The notes below the pieces were generated by a model. The model worked only from the letters and a program-made list of their open reading frames with translations. It was not told the origin of the DNA and did not search any database. Below are positions 7,318 through 36,019 of a stretch of 64,000 nucleotides of DNA, one piece after another. Positions within the stretch are counted from its first letter, which is position 1, and the number at the start of each line of letters is the position of its first letter. The translations under genes and the position numbers were made by a program. The stretch is from Candidatus Scalindua sp. SCAELEC01 (GTDB taxonomy: Bacteria; Planctomycetota; Brocadiia; Brocadiales; Scalinduaceae): positions 1 through 64,000 of the forward strand of contig SHMT01000020.1 in the NCBI GenBank assembly GCA_004282745.1, read 5' to 3'.

Positions 7318-7463
7318 TGTCTGAACGAAAACCCTGTGTTTGAATGAAAAGTTCCCAGGTACAAGGCGCGTAACAATATCGTAACCGGAACGTACAATTG
7401 TACTTGAGGATTTCGAAATTGTTGCAGCAACGTAGTAGATGGGTAGTTTTCGTTCAAACACTA
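7315..7463. repeat. Family A repeat, copy 1 (149 bp)
   Basis: Begins TAGTGTctgaacg and ends gttcaaacacta. Length is exactly 149 bp, as for the copies at 25128 and 30613, but this one is more diverged from them. The core contains cgtaaccgg...gtacaattgtac, an imperfect palindrome. The first three bases are the stop codon of the VOC gene. Confidence 0.85.
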
Positions 7464-24025: not shown

Positions 24026-24529
24026 TCAATAGAGTGTCACTTCTTTCTCTCTCTCATCTTTTACTCCCATCGCTTTGATAACACTTGCCGGTGAGAGAAC
24101 GGGTAGTCGATACTCTTCAACACAGTATACCTCTCTTTTTTGCACACCAAATTCTAAAGCATCTCTATGGTTAGGAAACCATATGTCTATGTGTTTCCCT
24201 CCGATTGCCCCACCCACATCCTCAGCCCTAAAAATAGTACAGGGAAAACCTTCGACAACGAGTGCAGATCCCAGTTTAATTACTGTCTTATCCACTGCGA
24301 CTGTCCCCCATCTTGCCTCCACCCCTATTGCCGTTATTCCGTACCACATATCTGAGGGATCTTTGTCGCAACATTTTTCACATGAACAATACGCGGTTAG
24401 CGTAAATTCATCAGCACCCGCAATATTAATAGAGAACAGGCTCAACAATAAAATCAAAATTCCAAAAGCAAGAGCTTTTTTTGCATTGCGTATAATAAAA
24501 ACTAAAATAATCTTTCTCGGTCTATACAT
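24026..24529 (-). CDS. 3D-domain (double-psi barrel) exported protein
   Basis: 167 residues. A positively charged N-terminus and a membrane segment (about 18-38) act as signal or anchor. The rest is a 3D domain: T-A-Y-C-S-C-E-K-C-C at the start, G-T-V-A-V-D, and E-D-V-G-G-A-I-G-G-K-H-I-D-I-W with the conserved Asp residues. This fold is shared with MltA-type lytic transglycosylases and resuscitation factors, so peptidoglycan cleavage is a likely role. The C-S-C-E-K-C-C cluster is typical of the subfamily. The gene overlaps the preceding one by 8 bp. Confidence 0.82.
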   Translation of the reverse strand: MYRPRKIILVFIIRNAKKALAFGILILLLSLFSINIAGADEFTLTAYCSCEKCCDKDPSDMWYGITAIGVEARWGTVAVDKTVIKLGSALVVEGFPCTIFRAEDVGGAIGGKHIDIWFPNHRDALEFGVQKREVYCVEEYRLPVLSPASVIKAMGVKDEREKEVTLY

Positions 24530-25127: not shown

Positions 25128-25276
25128 TAGTGCGTGAACGAAAACCCAGTGTTTGAACCAAAACTGCCCAGGTACAAGGCGCGAAATAATTACGTAACCG
25201 GAGCGTACTCAAGTACGTGAGGATTACGTCATTGTTGCAGCAACGCCGTAGATGGGTAGTTTTCGTTCAAACACTA
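25128..25276. repeat. Family A repeat, copy 2 (149 bp)
   Basis: Begins tagtgcgtgaacg and ends gttcaaacacta. It is exactly 149 bp and matches the copy at 30613-30761 in inverted orientation at 147 of 149 positions by my alignment. The core cgtactcaagtacg is a palindrome. The termini TAG/CTA suggest TA target-site use. Confidence 0.92.
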
Positions 25277-25696: not shown

Positions 25697-26725
25697 TTAC
25701 ATTACTCGTATTGCCACCCACCTGGCTCGATCAGATAAGTCATGTACATCGGTGAATTTAACTTTTATTGATCCCTGCTCTCTAAACACGAGCCATTTGC
25801 TTTCATTAAACGTAGAAGAAGGGGATTGCTCGTGCATTTTTACTGTTGATCCAAATACTGCAGCTTCTGCTACCGCATGTCCTCCAAACACAAATACCTT
25901 CCATACCGCTTCATCATTAATATCAAAAATTGCTTCAGTCTGGCCACTATCCAACATGGAGGTAACCCCCTTTAGTGAGTAGAATGTAGTGGCTTTGATA
26001 TCTCCATTTACTTCCAATTCTTCAGTTGGAGCGGTGGTGTTAATACCCACTTCTCCATGCTCCAGGATGGTAAAAACCTCACCTCTATCATCGTCAATAA
26101 ACCTCAAGGCATCAGCATCTCTCGTAATTGTCGTGTGTTCTCGATACGAGCCATCCCGTGAACTATTTCCCTCAAGGCGAATTGATGTCGATTTTTCATC
26201 TATTGTATATATATGAAAATCAACTTCAGGTGAACCGGTATGGATGCCGATCTCACCGAGGCGGTTGGATGAATCTTGTGTATGCTCCAGGATGGTGAAA
26301 ACTTCACCTCCATCATCATCAATAAACCTCAGTGCATGCGCATCTCTCACTATTGTCGTATGTTCTCGATACGAGCCGTCTCGTGAACTATTTCCTTCAA
26401 GACGGATCGATGTGAAATTCTCATTTTTTGATGACAGGTGGATATCTGTTTCGGGGTTTACGGTATTAAACCCAACATTACCAATATCATCAACGAATAC
26501 CACATCAGTCGGATCTCCATCTCTAGCATCGAGTGAATTACCAGCTCCTTCCACCGCTTCTCCGCTTGGTGGTGTCACTACAGGTTCCTCTTCCACCAGA
26601 ATGCTGTCTCCTCCTGTCGTTGTGCTCGAACTGTCCACCTCATAAGAAAAACTGTATGTGGAGAAACATGCAACAGATAATACAATCACTGACAAAAAGC
26701 GAAACCACTTCATTGATTTTTTCAT
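25697..26725 (-). CDS. Exported surface protein with tandem repeats, tail-fibre-like
   Basis: 342 residues with a signal peptide (about 1-30). Two long repeats share an almost identical core, S-I-R-L-E-G-N-S-S-R-D-G-S-Y-R-E-H-T-T followed by A-L-R-F-I-D-D-D, about 80 residues apart. Then comes a segment like those in phage tail fibres and S74-type proteins: V-G-I-N-T-T-A-P-T-E-E-L-E-V-N-G-D-I-K-A-T. No S74 autoprotease domain follows. It is probably a secreted or surface adhesin-like protein. A c-di-GMP-I riboswitch with terminator sits in its leader, which fits a role in attachment or matrix. The function is inferred from regulation and repeats. Confidence 0.75.
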   Translation of the reverse strand: MKKSMKWFRFLSVIVLSVACFSTYSFSYEVDSSSTTTGGDSILVEEEPVVTPPSGEAVEGAGNSLDARDGDPTDVVFVDDIGNVGFNTVNPETDIHLSSKNENFTSIRLEGNSSRDGSYREHTTIVRDAHALRFIDDDGGEVFTILEHTQDSSNRLGEIGIHTGSPEVDFHIYTIDEKSTSIRLEGNSSRDGSYREHTTITRDADALRFIDDDRGEVFTILEHGEVGINTTAPTEELEVNGDIKATTFYSLKGVTSMLDSGQTEAIFDINDEAVWKVFVFGGHAVAEAAVFGSTVKMHEQSPSSTFNESKWLVFREQGSIKVKFTDVHDLSDRARWVAIRVM

Positions 26726-26804
26726 TTTCTTACCCCCTTGTGTTAGAAATAAATGTAAATCTGGAATGAGTATCAGAATCTATCATCAATAATTTCCTAT
26801 AAAC

Positions 26805-26859
26805 AAAAAAGCCTCACAACTAAAGATATTCACCATGAATAATCCTTGGCAGTAAGGCT
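26805..26859 (-). terminator. Riboswitch expression platform: intrinsic terminator
   Basis: Read on the minus strand, agccttac (26852-26859) pairs with gtgaggct (26810-26817; one G-U), enclosing a small hairpin attca-tgg-tgaat. A run of T residues follows at once. The upstream arm is also the 3' part of the c-di-GMP aptamer, so aptamer folding and termination compete. Confidence 0.8.
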
Positions 26860-26938
26860 GTCTCTTAAGCTTCACTTCCTTGTCAACTTACGGACCCTTT
26901 TACTTTGCGTCCCCTGATTACTCAGGGTTTGCCTTTGT
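26840..26938 (-). ncRNA. Cyclic-di-GMP-I (GEMM-I) riboswitch
   Basis: On the minus strand the conserved GEMM-I elements appear in order: ggcaaacc, then a stem cctga/tcagg capped by a GTAA (GNRA) tetraloop, then gggacgcaaag, and at the 3' end agccttactgcc. Class I c-di-GMP aptamers have exactly this order, with the GNRA loop docking on a receptor. It lies about 115-210 nt upstream of the repeat-protein ATG at 26725. Because the 3' aptamer strand is needed for the terminator, ligand binding should favour read-through (an ON switch). That last point is inference. Confidence 0.88.
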
Positions 26939-27196
26939 TATAAAGCGTATAACACACAGACTTTTATTGAATAGAGACGATTCTCTACTGCTATGTTATT
27001 AAATACAATGCTTGTTGTCAAGTATGAAAATATGTTTTACATAAAAAAAGTAGTTAAATTTAAAGTATACCCTAGGTGTGGTCAGCAAAAGAGAATGTCA
27101 TGCATTGTCATATTGACAATTGTGGTAACCTATGTTTGTAAAATATGGAAAAGGGTTGTTCTTGAGGGAATTAATAGAAAACGGGGGAATAGAAAT

Positions 27197-28738
27197 ATGT
27201 TACTTTACGCCTATATTACATTACGACAATTTACTATAAAAAGTTTTTTTTGTTTTCTCCATTTGAAAACCATATGTATTCTGCTCATTTATTTGTTCGT
27301 TGTACCTTATAGCTCAACTGCCTGTTGTTCACAAATTATGATGAAGTGGAAAGGAAACAGTGAAGACGACATTGCTGGTTATCGAGTACATTACGGTGAA
27401 ACGAGTAGGTATGGTTCGGGTGTAAGTCCCGATACGTTTAGGTATGATAAAGTAACTGATGCTGGCACCAAGACAAGCCTCATTATTCCCACAACTGTTT
27501 ATCAATCTGGTACAACTTTATACATTACTGCAACAGCCTACGATTTTTCGGGTAATGAAAGTGTTTACGCAGAGGAGTTGGTTAATGTTATTTCCAACTC
27601 GGGTAATCAACCGCCGAATGCTGTTGATGACGTGGCAACAACAGGAGAAGACACTGCCTTTAAAATAGATCTGATTCTCAATGACACCGATGCTGACGGC
27701 ATAATTGACCCTGCTACGGTAGCGATAATAGTTGGACCGACAAGAGGTACGGCTGTTGCTCGCGTAGATGGCGCTGTGGATTATACACCTCCCACGGGGT
27801 ATACGGGTCAAGAAACCTTTGTGTATACGGTGGATGACGATCTTGGGGAAACCTCTAACGAGGCAACAGTGAGGGTGATTATTGGTTCGTCAGATACGAC
27901 TGAGATAACGAGTCCGATAAGCAACTCGACATTAACAACATCGGCTGTCACGTTCCAATGGAATGCTGGAATCCTAATAGACCGGTACCGGATACATATT
28001 GGAACAACAGGACCGGGGAGTAAAAATATTTTAAAACGGAACAATCTCGCAGTAACATTGTATACGGTGACAGGGATACCCATACGTGGGAATATAGTTT
28101 ATGTTCGGTTATGGTATAGAATTGGTGCTAATTGGTCATTTAAAGATTATGCTTACCATACTACGCAGGGCAGTGGCGATCAGGCGCCTACAGCGAATGA
28201 TGATACAGCGACTACACCTGTGTATACCCGGGTTAGTATTAATGTGCTGGCCAATGACACTGAACATGATGGCACAATTGACCCTACCACGGTAAAGGTA
28301 CTCGGTGATCCGACCAATGGGACGGCTATTGTTAATGTGGATGGTACCGTGGATTATACCCCTGTCACAGGATATACGGGACAAGATTTTTTCAGGTATA
28401 CGGTGGATGACGATCTTGGGGTAACTTCTAACGAGGCGACGGTGATGGTGACTATCGGTTTGTTAGATACGCCTGAGATGACAAGTCCGAAACCAAGTTC
28501 AACATTAACAACATCAACTGTCGTCTACCAGTGGAACGCTGGCACCCACGAAAGTCTATACCGGATACATGTTGGAACAAAGGGACCTGGTAGTAAAAAT
28601 ATTTTAAAACGAAACGGTTTAATAACAACATCACATACCGTGACAGGAATACCCATTAATGGGAAAACGATTTATGTACGACTATGGTATAAAATCGGTA
28701 CTCGTTGGTACTTTAAAGATTATGCTTATCAGACCTAG
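27197..28738 (+). CDS. Exported FN3/cadherin-like repeat protein
   Basis: 513 residues from the ATG at 27197, the last start before a hydrophobic signal segment; the frame is open further upstream but that part is unlike coding sequence. After the signal come an FN3-like domain (K-W-K-G-N-S-E-D-D-I-A-G-Y-R-V-H-Y), then two copies of a two-domain unit. In each unit a cadherin-like domain (P-x-A-x-D-D-x-A-T-T ... Y-T-x-D-D-D-L-G) is followed by a domain ending R-L-W-Y-x-I-G-x-x-W-x-F-K-D-Y-A. The two units are close relatives, indicating internal duplication. No catalytic domain is seen; a surface adhesin role is inferred. It is divergent from the riboswitch-controlled gene. Confidence 0.78.
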   Translation: MLLYAYITLRQFTIKSFFCFLHLKTICILLIYLFVVPYSSTACCSQIMMKWKGNSEDDIAGYRVHYGETSRYGSGVSPDTFRYDKVTDAGTKTSLIIPTTVYQSGTTLYITATAYDFSGNESVYAEELVNVISNSGNQPPNAVDDVATTGEDTAFKIDLILNDTDADGIIDPATVAIIVGPTRGTAVARVDGAVDYTPPTGYTGQETFVYTVDDDLGETSNEATVRVIIGSSDTTEITSPISNSTLTTSAVTFQWNAGILIDRYRIHIGTTGPGSKNILKRNNLAVTLYTVTGIPIRGNIVYVRLWYRIGANWSFKDYAYHTTQGSGDQAPTANDDTATTPVYTRVSINVLANDTEHDGTIDPTTVKVLGDPTNGTAIVNVDGTVDYTPVTGYTGQDFFRYTVDDDLGVTSNEATVMVTIGLLDTPEMTSPKPSSTLTTSTVVYQWNAGTHESLYRIHVGTKGPGSKNILKRNGLITTSHTVTGIPINGKTIYVRLWYKIGTRWYFKDYAYQT

Positions 28739-30612: not shown

Positions 30613-30761
30613 TAGTGTTTGAACGAAAACTACCCATCTACGGCGTTACTGCAACAATTACGTAATCCTCACGTACTTGAGTACGCTCCGGTTACGTAAT
30701 TATTTCGCGCCTTGTACCTGGGCAGTTTTGGTTCAAACACTGGGTTTTCGTTCACGCACTA
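30613..30761. repeat. Family A repeat, copy 3 (149 bp, inverted)
   Basis: Begins tagtgtttgaacg and ends ttcacgcacta. It is the reverse complement of copy 2 (25128-25276) with two mismatches. With copy 2 it brackets 5.3 kb containing tRNA-Thr and three surface-protein genes. Confidence 0.92.
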
Positions 30762-34192: not shown

Positions 34193-36019
34193 CTAAAGCT
34201 TTATTCGCTTTCGGTTTTTCCCCGTTAGATAAACCATTAAAATTGAAATATCAGCGGGAGACACACCTGAAATTCGTGAAGCCTGACCGAGGGAAACGGG
34301 ATGGATCTCGTGCAATTTTTGGCGAGCCTCCTTCCTTAAGCCCGGTATCTCTTCATATCGAAACCATGACGGGAGTTGGAGACTTTCCATTCTTTTGAAT
34401 TTTTCGATTTGTTGTTGCTGCCTCTCGATATATCCCTTATATTTTATCTCAATTTCTATTTGCTCTTGAGTAAGTGGTGAGATATTTAACTTTTTCAAAT
34501 CGTCATCCATCTTTAGTAAATCATCATAACCAACTTGAGGTCTTCTCAGAAGTTTTGCGAGCGAATCTGCGCCGTTACGTTTGCGTTCAAGACATTCAAT
34601 ATTTTCAGATATCTCTTTCTCCTTGGCCTGGAGCATGTGCCATTGTTCATTTTTTATTAAACCGAACTGATATCCATACTTCATAAGCCTCCTGTCGGCG
34701 TTGTCGTGTCGAAGGGTGAGGCGGTATTCAGCCCGTGAAGTAAACATTCTGTATGGTTCACTCGTGCCTTTTGTCACCAGATCATCAATTAATACTCCGA
34801 CATATGCCTCTGAACGATCCAAAATGAAAGGATCAGAACCCTCTATTTTTCGTACAGCATTTATTCCGGCCATCATTCCCTGTGCCGCTGCTTCTTCATA
34901 TCCCGAAGTTCCGTTAATCTGTCCGGCCAAGAAGAGGTTTTCAATAATCTTTGTTTCCAAAGAGTGCTTAATCTGAGTGGGTGGTACATAATCATATTCA
35001 ATTGCATAGCCGTAACGCGTGATCTCTGCCTTCTCCAACCCCTCTATAGAATGAACCATTGCCTCCTGGACATCGTATGGAATAGAGGTAGAGATGCCGT
35101 TACAATACACTTCTGACGTGTTTGTGCCTTCGGGTTCAATAAATATCTGATGCTTCTGTTTATCAGGAAATCTGACAATTTTATCTTCAATGGAGGGACA
35201 ATAACGTGGGCCGACCCCATTAATCTGTCCTGTATAGAGCGGGGAACGATCTAAGTTTGAGCGGACAATATCATGGGTAACATCATTCGTATGCGTTATA
35301 TAGCACTTCACCTGATTTTGGGAGATCTTTTTTGTCGAAAATGAGAATGCGGTAGGTTGTTCATCTCCCTTTTGTTCTTTTAACACTGTGTAATCAATTT
35401 TGTTCCCGTTTAGGCGTGGCGATGTTCCCGTTTTAAGTCTATCCATCTGGAAGCCAAAACGTTTCAAGTCATCTGAAAGTGTATCAGAAGAGGGTTCACT
35501 GGCCCTACCACCTTTTGTCGTATTTTTTCCTATGTGAATTATTCCATTCAAAAAAGTACCGGTTGTCAGGATCAGGGATTTTGCATGATATCGTATCCCA
35601 TTTTTGCTGATGAGACCAAAAATTTTTTCATTCTTGACGATAATTTTGTCGATGGTGTCCTGACGTAACGATAGATTTTCTTGCGACTCTAATCTCCTCT
35701 TCATCGAAAACTGATAGAGTTTCTTATCTGCTTGAGCACGGGGTGATCTAACCGCGTGTCCTTTACTTGCGTTGAGCAATCGAAACTGAATACCGGTTTC
35801 ATCGATTACCTTTCCCATTTCTCCTCCAAGTGCGTCAACTTCCCGTACTAATTGCCCCTTTGCAAGGCCCCCAATTGCAGGATTACATGACATTTGGGCA
35901 ACGGTATCTAAGTTGATGGAAAGTAAAGCCGTACGCATACCCATCCTTGCAGAGACCAGTGCCGCTTCGCACCCTGCATGCCCTGCTCCAACAACAACTA
36001 TGTCATAGTCCATGTGCAT
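34193..36019 (-). CDS. mnmG: tRNA uridine-5-carboxymethylaminomethyl modification enzyme MnmG
   Basis: 608 residues from the ATG at 36019; a closer ATG at 36013 is equally possible. It is the FAD-dependent partner of MnmE, modifying U34 of tRNA. The Rossmann motif is [13 protein letters not shown], followed by [11 protein letters not shown] and later [15 protein letters not shown], all typical of GidA/MnmG. MnmE is not in the window. The gene lies 47 bp downstream of rny and is convergent with rho. Confidence 0.95.

Follow-up and report, generated by a model that had tools for sequence, protein, structure and literature searches.

Among described riboswitches, the closest counterpart of the leader reported here is that of pilM (GEMM-Ib) in Geobacter metallireducens, which is likewise an ON switch and whose terminator, in the available part of its description, takes up the last aptamer strand together with the ligand-pairing C (PMC9262584); pilM senses cGAMP, whereas the present leader carries G20, the c-di-GMP form. 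The accessible portions of two reports identify cGAMP sensors by an A at position 20 (PMC6456294, PMC6274999), and in that portion of the former the single change A20G is said to be enough to turn a cGAMP switch from Geobacter into one for c-di-GMP. Cd1 of Clostridioides difficile belongs to the same aptamer family and has c-di-GMP as its ligand, but it is an OFF switch with a separate terminator and antiterminator (PMC9262584, available part), whereas here a strand is shared. In Geobacter sulfurreducens, 17 GEMM-I copies precede surface and secretion genes (PMC6456294, accessible portion), and many copies occur here too; the copies discussed there are of the cGAMP type (GEMM-Ib), whereas 108 of the 114 matches in the anammox order have G at position 20, and many copies in the order differ from those of G. 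sulfurreducens in sharing one nearly invariant aptamer-terminator strand. The c-di-GMP-I-GGC family (RF03167) is similar in overall sequence, but the present element lacks its G47 and scores below its cut-off.

The window, meaning the whole 64,000-nt stretch that was analysed, comes from Candidatus Scalindua sp. SCAELEC01 (GCA_004282745.1, contig SHMT01000020.1, positions 1–64,000), whose genome yielded a hydrazine synthase domain in a domain search; the host is therefore an anammox bacterium, of the Scalindua type. Read directly on the minus strand from 26943 to 26805, the letters comprise, in order, GGCAAACC, the CCCUGA-GUAA-UCAGGG hairpin, GGGGACGCAAAG, AGCCUUACUGCC, and GUUGUGAGGCUUUUUU (Table 1). 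The element is real and extends slightly beyond the interval originally proposed, as the aptamer starts at about 26943, five bases further out. Transcription would start about 50 nt ahead of the aptamer, as judged from a promoter-like site; the region has no excess of such sites (11 found vs. 11.7 expected, i.e., chance level), so the promoter is assigned by its position. The distance from the T run to the ATG of the 342-aa gene is about 80 bases.

Table 1. Features of the riboswitch locus and the evidence for each (window coordinates).
Feature	Position	Strand	Basis
Promoter-like TTGACA - 17 nt - TAACAT, sigma-70-like	26993..27021	-	10/12 matches; upstream of aptamer
c-di-GMP-I aptamer	26845..26943	-	RF01051, 58.4 bits, model positions 1-87
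Hairpin CCCUGA-GUAA-UCAGGG, GNRA loop	26912..26927	-	sequence and structure
G20-equivalent, selectivity base (G = c-di-GMP, A = cGAMP)	26933	-	mapped coordinate and literature rule (PMC6456294, PMC6274999, accessible portions)
A47-equivalent, base stacking on ligand	26906	-	mapped coordinate and RF03167 model alignment
C92-equivalent, pairs with ligand guanine; in OFF state with terminator 3' arm	26849	-	
Second aptamer helix, 3' strand GACAGCCUUACU, common to terminator	26851..26862	-	
Terminator 5' arm AGCCUUACUGC, within aptamer	26849..26859	-	
Terminator 3' arm AGUUGUGAGGCU	26810..26821	-	
T run of terminator, six T	26805..26810	-	sequence
Ribosome-binding-like AAGGGGG, 7 nt 5' of ATG	26733..26739	-	sequence
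Controlled gene, 342 aa, fibre-like	25697..26725	-	hydrophobic N-terminus; 66-aa repeats at residues 82-147 and 157-222

It is highly probable that this element is a c-di-GMP-I (GEMM-I) riboswitch acting as a transcriptional ON switch. The family assignment made in the original prediction was borne out by a covariance-model match to RF01051 (58.4 bits against a gathering cut-off of 35; E 7.8e-9 with 64 kb searched), and the match contains two helices, one of them GNRA-capped (GUAA), together with G20, A47, and C92 in what we take to be the reference (Vc2) numbering. Because these are the recognition bases, c-di-GMP is favoured over cGAMP as the ligand. The Vc2-like subform carries a CUAAG/UAUGG tetraloop receptor; this canonical receptor is missing from the second helix of the window element, which reads GUCCGUAAG...CUUAAGAGAC, and although the receptor is common in RF01051, membership is possible without it. 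The element thus has the appearance of an ordinary c-di-GMP-I aptamer, whose ligand would be c-di-GMP.

The terminator (26859–26805) is an imperfect hairpin followed by six T, and it directly abuts the aptamer with no gap. Its fold (−22.3 kcal/mol) is well below the shuffle mean of −12.8 (z −3.4), and none of 200 shuffles equalled it. As originally proposed, the terminator draws on the last aptamer strand: AGCCUUACUGC, which comprises the 3′ strand of the second helix together with the ligand-pairing C, doubles as the terminator 5′ arm, which is the pilM type of arrangement. Because 11 bases, C92 included, are common to both structures, aptamer and terminator are mutually exclusive. In energy calculations that leave out ligand energy, kinetics, and the loop-receptor contact, keeping the aptamer cost 2.6–3.9 kcal/mol while the terminator arm was incomplete, 6.6 kcal/mol once the arm was complete, and 9.5 kcal/mol with the T run and flank added. 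Since the ligand-free leader favours the terminator by 6.6–9.5 kcal/mol, ligand arriving in time should permit read-through, and the modelled energies thus agree with the earlier expectation that ligand blocks termination; the direction in the cell is probably ON. Without c-di-GMP, AGCCUUACUGC would leave the aptamer and pair with AGUUGUGAGGCU to form the terminator, which would bury the ligand-pairing C and halt RNA polymerase at the T run. With c-di-GMP bound, AGCCUUACUGC would be held in the aptamer, the terminator would be blocked, and the fibre-like gene would be transcribed.

Three other readings of a functional switch were weighed. It is very unlikely that the aptamer senses 3′,3′-cGAMP as GEMM-Ib: cGAMP sensors do belong to the same Rfam family, and A20 occurs in six of the 114 order matches, but the window has G20, and the single change A20G sufficed to yield c-di-GMP sensing in the Geobacter switch (PMC6456294, accessible portion). 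Membership in RF03167, which would imply a different ligand, is a very improbable reading, since the score of 58.7 bits, slightly above that for RF01051, is just below the RF03167 cut-off of 59, and position 47 is A in the window but G in the model. The letters GGC in the family name presumably denote bases 20, 47, and 92, which would make position 47 one of the name-giving positions; across the order, A occupies it in 112 of 114 matches (one G, one not parsed). An OFF switch, in which ligand promotes termination, has a precedent in c-di-GMP-I riboswitches such as Cd1 (PMC9262584, available part), and some relatives in the order (G021:C132) look OFF-like by eye; this reading is extremely unlikely for the window, where aptamer and terminator exclude each other through the 11 shared bases including C92 and no antiterminator was seen in the free fold.

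Decay of the riboswitch with loss of its response is also unlikely, although the window riboswitch is a somewhat worn copy. Its outer helix and terminator are weakened: its outermost aptamer pair, A-C, is a standard pair in 57 of 64 copies, and the terminator (−20.3 kcal/mol in this comparison) is among the weaker ones, with 8 of 64 weaker still and a median of −24.3. By eye, the second helix also departs from that of most copies (GGGUCCGUAAG vs. GGGUCUU), so the affinity of the aptamer may be reduced. Another copy in the same genome (G000:C88:116154) is without its 3′ half and adjoins a repeat-like stretch, and the leader of the ortholog in a sister species is already a relic. That ortholog, the closest to the controlled gene (64% identical), belongs to Candidatus Scalindua sp. 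RBC_AMX3, and the same leader is present in the same-genus genome G001. The orthologous leader gave no RF01051 match, even at E 5, although it can be aligned along the window leader (GGCAAACCC to GAAAATTCC, AGCCTTACTGCC to AGCTTACCTGCA); its GNRA hairpin is broken, its T run is interrupted (TTTTTTG in the window, TATTTCT in the sister), and its fold is at shuffle level (z −0.45, equalled or bettered by 62 of 200 shuffles), whereas the window leader reaches z −3.8. A deletion of the 5′ half of the aptamer was considered for this relic and rejected, as pairwise alignment shows mainly substitutions. Unlike the relic, the window element has kept its ligand-contact bases, GNRA hairpin, and T run all intact. 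Joint loss of sensor and terminator fits an ON switch, whose loss could be borne only along with that of the terminator, as a terminator without its sensor is expected to shut the gene. The absence of a switch in the sister species also indicates that this gene can do without the control. The weakness of the copy, the sister species without a switch, and the chance-level promoter match were all counted against the ON-switch reading, which is nonetheless the one retained.

The original prediction that the switch controls a tandem-repeat protein held: the 342-aa product contains two repeats of 66 residues with 48 of 66 identical, and no tandem repeat was seen in the gene at the DNA level. Of the further proposal of an exported surface protein, export is predicted from a hydrophobic N-terminal segment recognised visually and with a crude score, and the surface location would follow from similarity to phage tail-fibre profiles, which in PHROGs amounted to weak matches (best E 5.7e-7). 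A Pfam scan of the protein gave no match, and its predicted structure, computed with seven family members, had a mean pLDDT of 42 and a pTM of 0.23 and was set aside. A related repeat unit is encoded at six other places in the genome (54–60% identity), and two of these genes, C47:74624 and C88:24841, also lie downstream of such a switch, so that three members of the fibre-like family share this control; the two proteins contain collagen-like stretches, and one has an endosialidase-type chaperone domain. N-terminal hydrophobic segments were found in 62 of 95 switch first genes and 19 of 43 window ORFs (Fisher p 0.025), a modest excess obtained with a crude score and automatic ORF choice.

Two further features of the window were noted. 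A Big_9/cadherin-like gene (26993–28738, plus strand) separates the fibre gene from a BBP2-type porin gene; at locus L125, a closely similar porin frame ends, by eye, immediately upstream of the fibre gene, which means that the Big_9/cadherin-like gene was either gained in the window or lost in L125. An interspersed repeat of roughly 140 bp with inverted ends (GTTTGAACGAAAAC) is present in three window copies (7323–7460, 25136–25273, and 30616–30754), where none is expected by chance; further copies, or partial matches to the repeat, are found close to the switches of L018 and L019.

Switches of this family are numerous in the order. The SCAELEC01 genome has 11 RF01051 matches, nine of them above the cut-off, and 114 matches were obtained from the order, where 18 of 29 genomes were positive, SCAELEC01 included, with 35 in G022 and 20 in G024. 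In a phylum sample, 57 of 149 genomes had matches; under stricter filters, the 51 positives outside the order had 1–5 each and the six inside had 5–27. A strict shared-arm test (terminator of −15 kcal/mol or lower, with its 5′ arm starting in the last 35 aptamer bases) was passed by 64 of the 114. Among the 50 that failed, 20 keep the AGCCUUACUGCC-type 3′ strand, with the terminator too distant for the test or missing, or with the element at a contig end, and 30 are without that pattern, having other architectures or being degenerate or cut. Pairing between the 12-base aptamer 3′ strand and the downstream strand reached at least 18/24 in 74 of 85 scored switches (29 were unscored, and the 85 take in at least two Vc2-like elements without such a terminator and one misplaced arm, G022:C52), compared with 24 of 1700 plain shuffles of the downstream stretches pooled over all scored switches; the window, at 18/24, is at the low end. 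Position 7 of the arm covaries with pairing kept (A-T 72, G-C 3, C-G 1), and position 5 provides one clear compensatory case, T-A to A-T in G019:C11.

Other forms were also observed in the order. Six elements (L021, L023, L025, L027, L042, and L054) represent a second c-di-GMP-I form with a Vc2-like receptor and a Shine-Dalgarno-like AAGGAGGT or AAGGAGAT near the ATG; this stretch is partly complementary to the bases directly past the aptamer, and the form looks translational. In genome G021, two tandem aptamers (L028 and L041; C132:34241–34318 and 34460–34537) differ at 5 of 92 bases, 14 following bases included, and at position 20 one has G and the other A; they would be a natural two-input tandem for c-di-GMP and cGAMP, and by eye each precedes an OFF-like terminator. 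A third aptamer of that genome (L078, C105:51555–51631) also has A20, which suggests cGAMP signalling in an anammox relative.

In the SCAELEC01 genome, the first genes behind switches encode a REC-GGDEF-EAL protein (C9), a sigma-54 activator (C85), a Zn-protease-like protein (C99), and an Ig/PKD-repeat protein (C45), and a polysaccharide-export chain-length determinant lies about 750 bases downstream of the C59 switch. The C45 copy is Vc2-like, with a Shine-Dalgarno-like stretch instead of this terminator; the C5 and C37 contigs terminate at the switch, and the truncated C88:116154 copy is the one described above. Contigs C5 (L012) and C37 (L013) each break within one and the same riboswitch and agree in all of the first 126 bases, which means that two or more copies of it show no difference across that stretch. 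The genome encodes 10 GGDEF domains for making c-di-GMP and two EAL domains for breaking it, and one of the two EAL proteins is encoded behind the C9 switch, through which the regulon would feed back on itself. Across the order, the Pfam scan of first genes covered 94 proteins (L044 and the duplicate L071 ORFs were left out), and an ORF of 100 aa was lacking at 15 of the 114 matches. In four relatives (L032, L033, L037, and L045), a switch lies ahead of a 3D-domain protein; no riboswitch was detected at the 3D-domain gene of the window (24026–24529). Large proteins lie behind switches of this kind in G001 (L099 and L100), and SpvB plus TcdB-middle domains were found in two first genes in the scan of all first genes, L099 being one of them. 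In G022, the gene behind one switch (L081, C15) encodes a contractile tail-sheath protein (Phage_sheath_1), and an injection system may there be controlled by c-di-GMP.

The riboswitch class and its ON logic are already known; what we found no report of is their presence in this lineage, or the many near-identical copies in anammox genomes, after searching open-access titles and abstracts on anammox and riboswitches. We know of no routine genetics for anammox bacteria. If the prediction is true, cell-free transcription could directly test control in these organisms, and c-di-GMP would act on cell-surface genes of an anammox bacterium through RNA alone. In anammox granular sludge, according to the available part of a review (PMC11224092), c-di-GMP and extracellular matrix are correlated; the switches name candidate target genes. 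We see about an even chance that a large c-di-GMP ON regulon operates in anammox bacteria, namely in genomes of the Brocadiaceae type and in part of those of the Scalindua type, and that it consists of near-identical copies of a single aptamer-terminator module that precede fibre-like, pilin, cell-wall, exopolysaccharide, tail-sheath, and c-di-GMP-turnover genes. If so, surface remodelling, and possibly granulation, would be a direct read-out of c-di-GMP.
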